IMG/VR virus record: IMGVR_UViG_3300046777_000412
Span: 1-38,726 of that record
Direction: 5' to 3' (one strand)
DNA: 38,726 nucleotides
Source: a virus
Shown: one piece after another, positions 1,775 to 15,004 of the stretch
How positions within the stretch are numbered: position 1 is the first letter of the stretch
How the letters are laid out: each line of letters begins with the position of its first letter
Made by a program: the position numbers and the translations under genes
The notes under the pieces: generated by a model
Told to the model about the DNA's origin: nothing
The model's database searches: none
Seen by the model: the letters and a program-made list of their open reading frames with translations, nothing else

Positions 1775-1863
1775 AGGTCCATCTCCCTTGTTTAGTAGTT
1801 GTCGTAGGCCTCATATGGCTTTGGGGGAAACCGTATGGCTCCTACTCCTGGTTTTCTGTCTCT

Positions 1864-4399: not shown

Positions 4400-7300
4400 T
4401 TAGTCTCTGATTAGTCTTGAGAACAATGCGAAGTAAGCATCTTCTGCATTGCGGTTAGTCTTGGATAGACGTTCTAATTCAGCCTTAGCCTGTTCCTTTA
4501 GAAGGTCTTTGTAGTTCTGGGCAGATATTGTATTGCCTGGAACTGAATCTCTGGCGTTGATATATTGGTTATATACATTCAACATACCTTCGATAGGCTG
4601 GCGAATTGCTGGGTCCAACTTAACGTCTGGGTTAGAAAGCATAAGACTTAAATCATCTAATGCTTGATTTCTTTGGATTCCTTTTTCTGCACCTTTGCCA
4701 AGTTCTTTTTGTAGGGCAGGTCTTGCACCTTTGAAAGACTTGGACCAGTTTTCCCACATATCTTTAAGTTGACGCTTTTGATAATCATTAGTTGTTCTAG
4801 CAAGTTCTGCCTCGTAAAGGTCCTTTTGTGTGTAGTAGAAGTTCTCATCGTAGGCTGTATTGACCTGACGTAGGTAGTCCTTCATTAACTTAGACTGCTT
4901 TAGACCCATATTGATAAGTAACTTATAGGCGTTGAAATCAAACTCGCCTTCTTTGGGAATAAAGAACGAAGCCGCTTCTGGATACTTCTTGAGCAGTTCT
5001 TTGTTATCATTTATCCACTTATTAGCCTTATCATTAGCGCTAATAATTGCAACTACATTGCTTTCAGATTCAGATATCGTATATGGAACTTGGTCTGGGA
5101 ATAAACGAATCCATTCTTCCATAGCCTTGTCATAACTGCCAGTCTTTTCAACTAGACTATTAAAGGTTTGCTTGAAGTTAGTCTCACCATTTTGACGAAC
5201 CCACTGAGCAATTTCGCTCTTGAGCGTAGTCTGTGGCGGAGCAGGGAATATAAATCCAGTAACAAATCTTAGAACCAAAGCAGTAAAGGTAGAAGCCTCT
5301 AGTTTGTTCTGATATTGCTCCATTTCGCCTGGAGTAATAGGAATTTCTTGACCAGTCTTTGGGTCAACCTTTGGTCTTAGTCCGTGACCTGTAGCCTCTA
5401 GGTATGCTGCTGCTTTACGGAATGCTGAAGCGAACTGAGAGTTACGCTCATTCTTATCCATAAGCGAAATAAAACGATTTACGTGTGCAGGAAGCACAGC
5501 ATTCATCATTGGCTGGTCTTCACCATAAACGCCAAGCGCAATTCTGTCCAGTTTATCTAAACCTGGTACAAGATTGCTAATACCTTTGATGGTAACTGCA
5601 GATAATGGACCAGCAAATGTAGGGAATAGTGAGTCTGGGTTAGAAGATGGAGTAATCATCTTCAACTTGGCAGCAAATTCAATAGGCATTGGAGCCTTAA
5701 TTGCGCCTTCTTGACCAAAAGCACTCATTACTTTATCTACTGCTTGATACATTGCAGTTGTACCTGGGTAGAAGAAGTATTGTTCTCCACTATCGTCAGT
5801 CTGAACAAAGCCAGAATGAGCAATACCGTCATAAGTTAGCGATGCTCTTGTAATTGCTTCTGGGTTATATCGTACGCTTCTATAGAAACGACGATAAAAG
5901 TCTTCAGTTGCACGGTAGAAACGAGCGAAGTTACGAGCAGACATAGCCAACTGGCTACGAACTGCAGGATTATCTACATATGCTAATGCTGAATCCTTGG
6001 CTAAATCTTCTGCTGCTTGATTTATATGACGAATTGCAGACTTATAAGCCTTATTGTAAGCCTCACCAGTCTTACCTTTTGTAAGTTGAGTTATAACTTT
6101 TTGAGCATATCCAGAACTATTTAGTTCCTTACGGAATCTTATAAACTCATTTAGGACAATTGGCTCACGAGACCAGCGAGCATTAGCCTCGCCCATACCA
6201 TCCCAGAACTTATCAAACATAGATGCAGCAAAATTGTCGCCTTCTGATACTGGAACTAGCGTTGGACCTGATATAAATTCAGGAGCAAGTGCTGGGTCAT
6301 TAGGTAAATCCGTAAGTCTTAGACCTTTTGCGCTTACTTTAACTGTTCCATCTTTATCAGTTTTAATAACTGCTTTAAGAAGGTCTTCATTTAGGTCGCC
6401 ATTCTTTTTAGAGAATAGGTTTCTGGCTGCAATATAGGCACGCTGTGCGTGAGTATCTATGCTTCCGCCATCCTTGAAGTACAACTGGAATCTATCAAGG
6501 TCTCTTTTAGGCAAAGTGCTGAGATATTTCTTCATCTCTGCTATTGCTTTATTTTCATCTTTCATATAACGGACAGCAATACTACCTAATTCATCATTGG
6601 TCATTATGCCAATTTGGAAAAGCCAGCCAACCTTAGCCTGTTCATTGGCTACTGGGTTGTAGTTAGTAAATGCTTTATCTCCAACAGAACGCTTATAGGC
6701 ATTACCATCAATAGTAATTGCTTCCATCTTGCCATATCGGTTTACATCATCTGCGATATTAGCGTAACGGCCACCACCGCGTACACCATTCTTAGCGCCT
6801 TCAGATATATCTGCAAGCATCTCATCTAAATTTCCGTACCTGGCAAGTTCAGAAATAATGCTTGCTGATTCTGGGTCAAGATTATATGCTAGTTTGCGAC
6901 GCAAAATTGCTTCTGCCATAACAGAACGAACTTCATCTTCTGTTTGAGCAGCAGCCATCTTTGCAGAAAATTCTTTTAATTCATCTGCTTTTAAGAATTT
7001 ATTGATAGCACCTAGTTCACCTTGTTCAGTATTAAAAAATACTGTATCTTTGAACTTTTCTAGTGCTGTCTTATCTCCACCAACACCGCGTCCGACACGA
7101 ATACGGGTGGACCATAAACGACCTTTGACCATATCCCAAGGGTTACGACCGCGAGCCAAAAAGAAAATATCATCTTCAATAGCATTACGGATAGGGAAAC
7201 GAACTCCGGCCAATGTCAAGAATGACCAACCAGATGTAATCTTATCTATCCATTTATTGTGAGATACTCCCACAAGTTTTGATATAATACCTTGACGAGC

Positions 7301-14157: not shown

Positions 14158-14185
14158 TTGACACTAGGGGAGACTGTGGTAGGCT
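14158..14185 (+). promoter_or_regulatory. Rightward promoter P1
   Basis: TTGACA at 14158-14163, a perfect sigma-70 type -35 box, a 16-base spacer and TAGGCT at 14180-14185. Predicted transcription start is about 14191-14193, just before the stem-loop at 14194 and some 40 bases before the first rightward gene. Best promoter in the window. Confidence 0.7.
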
Positions 14186-14230: not shown

Positions 14231-14398
14231 ATGGAAACAGCGAAAAAAATCAACTTTATCTCCTCACTAGTTAAAGAGGTTATTGAAACAATGGAAGAAG
14301 AATACGGTTTCCTTTCAACTCAGGAACAAGGCACATCAAATCTAAATCAGGCTTATCTTTACAAGGTGCTAGAGATTATTGGAAAAATCGAACAATAG
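14231..14398 (+). CDS. Small early protein, unknown
   Basis: 55 codons, ATG at 14231 to TAG at 14396-14398, with GAAAGGG upstream. The product is helical and acidic in the middle (ETMEEEYGF), soluble and without motifs. It is the first gene of the rightward operon, driven by P1. Its stop codon is physically part of the hammerhead ribozyme that follows: the G of TAG is the first base of stem II. A ribosome ending here would cover one strand of stem II and the GAAA core, so translation of this gene may delay ribozyme folding (inference). Confidence 0.7.
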   Translation: METAKKINFISSLVKEVIETMEEEYGFLSTQEQGTSNLNQAYLYKVLEIIGKIEQ

Positions 14399-14449
14399 AC
14401 CGAAACCGCCGAAAGGCGGTCTATCCGTGAGGCGGATACTGACGAGGTC
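14398..14449 (+). ncRNA. Type II hammerhead ribozyme
   Basis: A complete self-cleaving hammerhead fold can be drawn with every core base present. Stem II 5' strand GACC 14398-14401; core GAAA 14402-14405; stem III CCGCC 14406-14410 with a GAAA tetraloop and GGCGG 14415-14419; U 14420 pairing with A 14405; cleavage-site C 14421 (triplet GUC); stem I TATCCG 14422-14427, loop TGAGG, CGGATA 14433-14438; core CUGACGA 14439-14445; stem II 3' strand GGTC 14446-14449. Stems of 4, 5 and 6 bp are perfect, and the G10.1-C11.1 pair is present. Being open at stem II makes it type II. Predicted cleavage is between 14421 and 14422, separating the first from the second gene of the operon. Confidence 0.9.
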
Positions 14450-14470
14450 AGAAAACGAAAGGGAAGAAAA

Positions 14471-14698
14471 GTGAAAAGTGTAGAAGAAAGAATCGCAAAA
14501 CTGAACGAGCGCGAATCGCTTTTTTGCTCAAAAAGAGACGAGATAGAGAAAAAAATCAACAGAGTTCTAGGGATTGAACTACAACCCTTACAACTCTTGA
14601 TGATTCGCCAATTGGTTTCAGATTTTGAGAAATACGAAACAGCAATACAGAACATAGAAGAAGATAGGCGCGAACTAAGGCAAGTAGTCACCGCCTAA
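14471..14698 (+). CDS. Small coiled-coil protein, unknown
   Basis: 75 residues from a GTG start with AAAGGGAAG upstream. Nearly all of it is charged heptad-like helix (VEERIAKLNERESLF, EIEKKINRVL, ENIEEDRREL-type segments), with one Cys at residue 19. It is probably a coiled-coil dimer. It lies directly 3' of the hammerhead ribozyme, so its message would carry a 5'-hydroxyl end and begin with the stem I hairpin after cleavage. No function recognised. Confidence 0.7.
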   Translation: MKSVEERIAKLNERESLFCSKRDEIEKKINRVLGIELQPLQLLMIRQLVSDFEKYETAIQNIEEDRRELRQVVTA

Positions 14699-14701
14699 TG
14701 C

Positions 14702-14735
14702 TTGCCTTTCCTCTAGGGAATCACTACCCTAGAGG
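14702..14735 (+). promoter_or_regulatory. Candidate promoter P2 with embedded inverted repeat
   Basis: TTGCCT 14702-14707, 17-base spacer, TACCCT 14725-14730. Overlapping it is a 9-bp perfect inverted repeat, CCTCTAGGG 14710-14718 and CCCTAGAGG 14727-14735, so the -10 box lies in the right arm. No T-run follows, so it is not a plain terminator. It could drive the gene at 14776. Confidence 0.45.
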
Positions 14736-14775
14736 GAGGGGAGGAATTAGGCCTCCAATAACGAAAGGGTGAAAG

Positions 14776-14919
14776 ATGATTTACAAGGTAGAGATTAGAG
14801 GCAAGGGCGTTATGCCTTACCAATTCGCCACTAAGCAAGAGGCGGAAGATTACGCGGTGAGTATGACAGTATGGACAGGTGGGGCGTATCGTATCCATAA
14901 GGTAAGAGCGGTAGCCTAG
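14776..14919 (+). CDS. Small early protein, unknown
   Basis: 47 codons, ATG 14776 to TAG 14917, preceded by ACGAAAGGG, the same start-site motif as its neighbours. The sequence MIYKVEIRGKGVMPYQF... with ATKQEAEDYAV and a basic C-terminus suggests a small alpha/beta fold, as in DUF-type proteins that begin with an edge strand and then a helix. It stands as its own unit between two promoter-like hairpins (14702 and 14922). Function unknown. Confidence 0.65.
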   Translation: MIYKVEIRGKGVMPYQFATKQEAEDYAVSMTVWTGGAYRIHKVRAVA

Positions 14920-14921
14920 TG

Positions 14922-14955
14922 CTTACTATGGGGGAGAGTGTGGTATGCTCTCCCC
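14922..14955 (+). promoter_or_regulatory. Candidate promoter P3 with embedded inverted repeat
   Basis: CTTACT 14922-14927, 16-base spacer, TATGCT 14944-14949, overlapping the perfect 8-bp repeat GGGGAGAG 14931-14938 / CTCTCCCC 14948-14955. The stretch GGGGAGAGTGTGGTATGCT closely matches GGGGAGACTGTGGTAGGCT of P1. It probably serves the long gene run from 15005. Confidence 0.45.
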
Positions 14956-15004
14956 TGTGGTATCCACTAGCAACAAGGCTAGAGGATAAACGAAAGGGAA
15001 AACA

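Follow-up and report, generated by a model that had tools for sequence, protein, structure and literature searches.

Evidence for a compact type II hammerhead ribozyme with a core-complementary 3′ tail at an early gene boundary of a viral genome

Comparison with related viral sequences strongly supports positions 14398-14449 (+) of the IMG/VR virus record IMGVR_UViG_3300046777_000412 as a complete type II hammerhead ribozyme. The whole record, 38,726 bases, was analysed and is called the window below. Comparative sequence analysis demonstrates the hammerhead fold, its placement between genes, and the covariation of core position N7 with a purine (R) in the 3′ tail. We consider it probable (roughly 0.6) that the ribozyme processes the message between two cistrons by cleaving itself and that it includes its own competing hairpin, which may serve as a latch or as an OFF state. 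The role of hammerheads in phages and bacteria has been a standing question since 2011. The compact subclass described here offers a testable answer: it is anchored at a stop codon, it ends just before the next ribosome-binding site, and it carries a covarying hairpin that would undo the active core. At stake is whether the self-cutting RNA is simple punctuation, a one-way latch or a translation-coupled switch.

Structure and setting of the window ribozyme

The elements of the ribozyme and its surroundings are as follows.

14158-14185, +, promoter-like TTGACA-16-TAGGCT 5′ of gene 1 (called P1 in an earlier sequence-only reading), seen by eye
14231-14398, +, gene 1, open reading frame of 55 aa with in-frame TAG stop at 14396-14398
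14396-14398, +, TAG stop of gene 1, its G being the outermost base of stem II (from sequence)
14398-14449, +, type II hammerhead ribozyme, compact subclass (all elements present in order; Rfam and our own covariance model)
14398-14401, +, 5′ strand of stem II, GACC, pairing with GGUC at 14446-14449
14402-14405, +, GAAA core stretch
14405-14420, +, stem III hairpin including A15.1-U16.1 (covariance alignment)
14419-14421, +, GUC triplet
14421/14422, +, predicted cleavage site, 3′ of C17 (14421), from hammerhead chemistry
14422-14438, +, stem I hairpin with loop I motif GUNANGC, 5′ end of the predicted downstream product
14439-14445, +, catalytic core strand CUGACGA, with N7 = C14443
14447-14451, +, tail GUCAG, complementary to CUGAC 14439-14443 in the competing hairpin (N7:R covariation in relatives; isoenergetic fold)
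14457-14463, +, ribosome-binding site of gene 2, GAAAGGG (motif common to other early genes)
14471-14698, +, gene 2, open reading frame of 75 aa with GTG start

The sequence-only reading had claimed that all invariant core bases are present in order, and the window copy indeed contains C3 U4 G5 A6 N7 G8 A9, G12 A13 A14, the pair A15.1-U16.1 and H17. The perfect stems I, II and III of that reading, with a GAAA tetraloop on stem III, were likewise recovered at the same positions. Stem III pairs CCGCC 14406-14410 with GGCGG 14415-14419 around the GAAA loop and is extended by A14405-U14420, while stem I pairs UAUCCG 14422-14427 with CGGAUA 14433-14438, a seventh pair (U-G) being possible. Stems I and III are closed by loops and stem II is open, and the pairs are backed by compensatory changes in relatives. 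Cleavage 3′ of C17 is established hammerhead chemistry.

A search with the Rfam type II covariance model, proposed earlier as a check, matched 14398-14457 of the window (RF02276, Hammerhead_II; 33.3 bits, E = 0.004). The score stays below the gathering score of 37 bits, which is a database convention and not a property of ribozymes. We also trained our own covariance model on 44 viral copies, leaving the window out; it scored the window copy at 72.2 bits (E ~ 1e-23) and found no second hammerhead site in the window. Strict hammerheads were absent from all 400 shuffled windows.

Hammerhead copies could be distinguished by their stem I segment. In compact copies, including that of the window, this segment spans 17-18 nt with the loop I motif GUNANGC, whereas in long copies it spans 20-24 nt and fits the pseudoknotted Rfam consensus. 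A pseudoknot between loop I and the tail was considered for the window copy and rejected, as its loop I (UGAGG) has no complementarity to the tail; nor was a loop-tail signal seen among the strong mutual-information pairs. According to the 2011 report (PMC3088659), this pseudoknot is a majority feature of the consensus and is not required. When 15 compact copies in 13 loci were compared with the Rfam cutoff, four passed, five scored below it and the rest were unreported. Since 11 of the 15 miss it, the RF02276 cutoff under-covers the compact subclass and overlooks most of the compact copies tested.

The prediction that stem II starts within the TAG stop of the preceding gene, with the ribozyme between gene 1 and gene 2, proved correct. 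Gene 1 has the same ribosome-binding site, GAAAGGG, as the neighbouring genes, and no known family was found for the product of gene 1 or gene 2. The promoter P1 can be read by eye as TTGACA-16-TAGGCT, but a consensus promoter scan gave no report of it. The best annotated terminase matches of the window are Streptomyces phages, at about 43%, which makes the earlier assignment to an actinophage plausible without establishing the host. Neither INPHARED, searched for DNA relatives of the window, nor the GTDB genomes, searched with the terminase for related prophages, gave any.

Relatives and their placement at gene boundaries

A pattern fixing the core letters only found the motif in at least 120 viral contigs. 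Although this pattern demanded no stem, 99 of the 129 unique matches listed form stem III and a stem I of at least 5 bp, compared with 0.05% of shuffles. In an alignment of 44 sequences, pre-selected for having stems, double substitutions occurred in 12 of the 16 pairs and 99.3% of the cells were paired. The cleanest structural test used 34 non-redundant copies whose selection relied solely on the letters of core and tail; there, the highest mutual information falls on the helix pairs.

The copies are positioned tightly relative to genes. In 28 of 66 compact copies, the first base of the stop codon of an upstream open reading frame lies exactly 6 nt 5′ of G12, and in 52 of 66 this distance is 5-9 nt; the 5-9 nt range also holds for 48 of 72 long copies. 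In the exact-offset class, to which the window belongs, the stop is TAG in 25 of 28 copies versus 18% in the same contigs (p = 6e-16, a value that ignores shared ancestry). This preference fits the fact that the G of TAG makes the outer pair of stem II. On the 3′ side, the next start codon lies at a median of 26.5 nt from CUGANGA. The predicted cut therefore falls 3′ of the stop and 5′ of the ribosome-binding site, and would leave both genes whole. The same layout of stop, ribozyme and start is shared by the annotated Streptomyces phages Daudau and Hank144, which carry several type II hammerheads. The sequence-only reading had regarded the overlap with a stop codon as new; instead, this is the usual arrangement in phage type II hammerheads, seen in most copies.

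Some phages carry a hammerhead after nearly every early gene. Across the twelve contigs with most copies, exactly one open reading frame lies in 38 of the 49 gaps between successive hammerheads. Four of these contigs (L213, L097, L217, L240) have six to eight consecutive hammerheads, mostly one per adjacent gene pair.

Two side observations concern hairpins near or resembling these elements. In L222, the hammerheads at 5891-5970 and 6177-6260 have a hairpin and T run resembling an intrinsic terminator immediately behind them, and cleavage would therefore release only a very short downstream RNA. Furthermore, a motif tggtnaccRGYCGAAAC-hairpin-GTCctagataacc...CTGAGGAGG is repeated intergenically before ATG in L005, L019, L026, L083, L086, L088, L092 and L099, with several copies in some contigs. 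It has a stem III-like hairpin without stem I and was judged not to be a hammerhead; matches to the CTGAGGAGG pattern in L092, L099 and others were rejected on the same ground, the absence of stem I.

The core-complementary tail and its possible role

The 3′ tail of compact copies often reads RUCAG, the complement of the catalytic strand CUGAY. In an unbiased set, TCAG followed 28 of 65 compact copies versus 2 of 64 long copies, nearly always at one of two offsets in the compact ones. The tail is thus not needed for the compact class, as about 37 of the 65 do without TCAG. In two scans N7 was set to T or C and TCAG was required, with any base allowed in front of TCAG. The N7-R combinations were 28 T-A, 34 C-G, 1 T-G and 1 C-A (Fisher p = 7e-16); after dropping copies at least 80% identical, 20 T-A and 11 C-G remained with no exceptions. 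Among the 34 non-redundant copies, just one of the 11 pairs with the highest mutual information lies outside the helices, namely N7:R, and it was paired in all 34. The T-A and C-G forms occur side by side in L222, and no viral contig was found in which the tail pairs with a purine N7. In GTDB genomes the tail pattern had eight matches, of which two form stems, both T-A, and the six stemless ones serve as chance controls. The two stem-forming copies lie in metagenome-assembled genomes of Acidobacteria (L273) and Rhodobacteraceae (L274).

In an active hammerhead N7 is unpaired and CUGA is part of the catalytic strand; hence the N7:R pairing must belong to a different state. In the minimum free energy fold of a 91-nt region of the window, CUGAC 14439-14443 pairs with GUCAG 14447-14451 and replaces stem II, so that the tail hairpin excludes both stem II and the active core. 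The two states of the window have predicted energies of -23.2 and -23.3 kcal/mol, and the median difference in 93 copies was 0.1, -0.5 or -0.3 kcal/mol depending on tail offset; these Vienna energies ignore tertiary contacts, and their uncertainty exceeds the differences reported. In the window itself R is part of stem II and its variation is constrained, so the evidence for covariation comes from relatives whose loop has 6 nt, for example L222 at 5891 and 6177, where N7 and R are both free. Covariation and modelled energies together point to two mutually exclusive conserved folds. The bistability implied by the switch of the sequence-only reading is therefore backed by a conserved competing hairpin, but the covarying partner is the ribozyme's own 3′ tail.

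In the mechanism that we propose, an RNA spanning genes 1 and 2 would fold into the hammerhead from the last base of the gene 1 stop and cleave itself 3′ of C14421. On the 5′ side of the cut, the gene 1 message would retain its stop and terminate with the hairpin of stem III and a 2′,3′-cyclic phosphate; on the 3′ side, the hairpin of stem I with a 5′-OH would open the gene 2 message, whose ribosome-binding site would be accessible. The outcome would be single-gene messages with hairpin-protected ends. Since the GUCAG-CUGAC pairing would be about as stable as stem II, which it excludes along with the active core, the uncut RNA may be poised between two folds. Once cut, the downstream product, predicted to fold as two hairpins, should go fully to the tail hairpin because the other half of stem II is lost. 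Most likely the tail hairpin would then act as a one-way latch, promoting product release, preventing religation and giving a double-hairpin 5′ end. We favour the latch because the tail hairpin wins in the product and need not beat stem II in uncut RNA. Cleavage, the latch and any effect on mRNA levels are inferences.

The main rival places the tail hairpin before cleavage, as the OFF state of a translation-gated switch. A terminating ribosome would cover the 5′ strand of stem II and GAAA, the tail would capture the core and the message would stay uncut, whereas an untranslated gene 1 message would fold actively and be cut. The stop codon being part of stem II, the TAG excess in 25 of 28 exact-offset copies and the nearly isoenergetic folds all fit this model. 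The stop lies exactly in stem II in 52 of 92 tail-bearing copies versus 12 of 52 others (p = 1e-4, an association confounded by ancestry), which hints weakly at the competition between translation and the ribozyme raised earlier. However, a start at a stop codon is expected of whatever element fills a short gap between genes, and with fast exchange between isoenergetic folds cleavage would be only about two times slower unless a further factor acts. We therefore regard such gating as possible but, on balance, unlikely. The broader proposal that a widespread phage subclass, with a structural stop codon and a covarying anti-core tail, forms a translation-coupled self-cleaving switch separating early messages gene by gene is doubtful.

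The RUCAG tail might also be a by-product, for example of a tertiary contact in the active fold, at a plain processing site of the type described in 2011 with no competing state. The class and its context are already known from that report (PMC3088659), and many copies lack the tail; yet N7, unpaired in the active form, and R change together with almost no exception, and TCAG can pair with the invariable CUGA, so that we rate this reading as improbable. An inactive relic, no longer cutting in the cell, would accord with the patchy occurrence among relatives and the Rfam score under the curated cutoff. It is very improbable given the intact core and stems and the fold retained between unrelated genes in a relative, L150 (see below). 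Chance resemblance has nothing but the sub-threshold Rfam score in its favour, and is statistically refuted by the 72.2 bits of the independent model and the 400 shuffles, which makes it barely conceivable. Hence, we retain the self-cleaving processing element with a competing hairpin as the preferred reading.

Much of this has precedents. Perreault et al. 2011 (PMC3088659) reported type II hammerheads in phages and on the flanks of prophage genes, and suggested that these divide phage transcripts into pieces of gene length; the arrays of A. tumefaciens and A. caulinodans were shown to cleave. The window copy shares with RF02276 and that report the circular permutation, invariant core, three stems and open stem II, and the occurrence in phages and prophages, often as several copies flanking single genes. 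The consensus given there includes a pseudoknot of loop I with the tail; compact copies lack it, their stem I is short with the loop GUNANGC, and their tail is often complementary to the core. HHphage of haloviruses HF1/HF2 also lies close 5′ of an early gene start and was proposed to be regulated, but it has a variant structure and a proposed tuning by salt, and the passages on it in the paper describe neither stop-codon anchoring nor a covarying tail (PMC3088659). The theta (HDV-like) ribozymes of gut phages are likewise small, self-cleaving, intergenic elements that process phage RNA; in contrast, they have the HDV fold and adjoin tRNA genes instead of lying between protein genes (PMC10879173). 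Our literature search, which covered papers readable without subscription, found no prior description of stop-codon anchoring or a covarying anti-core tail. Hence, the covarying anti-core tail of the compact subclass appears new, whereas type II hammerheads in phages and the idea of transcript cutting were known.

Lineage history and a second boundary element

Only two of the 55 terminase relatives with the region covered have kept a hammerhead, L150 (compact) and L139 (long type), so that the ribozyme is dispensable in the window's lineage. The compact copy of L150 scores 74.3 bits and shows a compensatory change from U-A to G-C in stem I with the fold kept, the kind of change that the sequence-only reading had proposed to look for in related phages, and its flanking genes are unrelated. 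L150 has a second hammerhead at 1778-1843 (-), with C at core U4 (CCGAUGA) and 48.9 bits in Rfam. In L122, the closest relative (99% terminase identity), other genes replace gene 1 and gene 2.

A different element, here called element X, follows gene 2.

14692-14752, +, element X, conserved long hairpin with the stop of gene 2 inside its basal helix (folding, relatives)

This intergenic hairpin, about 25 bp long (z -5.1), begins with the upstream stop codon and bears the fixed motifs GCUUGCC / GGGGAGG; repeats of it occur in L122, L127, L136, L140 and others. Its basal helix covaries with the upstream stop (TAG/CUA, TAA/UUA, TGA/UCA), the third base of the stop changing together with the 3′ strand. 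No Rfam family matched element X, and a ribozyme was rejected because it folds as a single long hairpin. The boundary before the gene at 14776 carries element X in the window and in L136, and the second, Rfam-type hammerhead in L150. Because hammerheads and element X occupy the same slots, a shared role in mRNA processing or end protection is favoured.

In phage T7, RNase III sites at early gene boundaries serve to split the polycistronic early transcript into single messages. The hammerheads resemble these sites in a processing role at early gene boundaries; T7 sites are cut by a host protein, whereas the hammerheads would be self-cutting. Element X, in the same operon, probably resembles a site of the T7 kind, and an RNase III-like site would be the more economical explanation of it; a promoter role is also possible. 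Finally, a strong hairpin (z about -4) at 14910-14972 of the window, directly 3′ of the TAG that ends the 14776 gene, is possibly a diverged element X.
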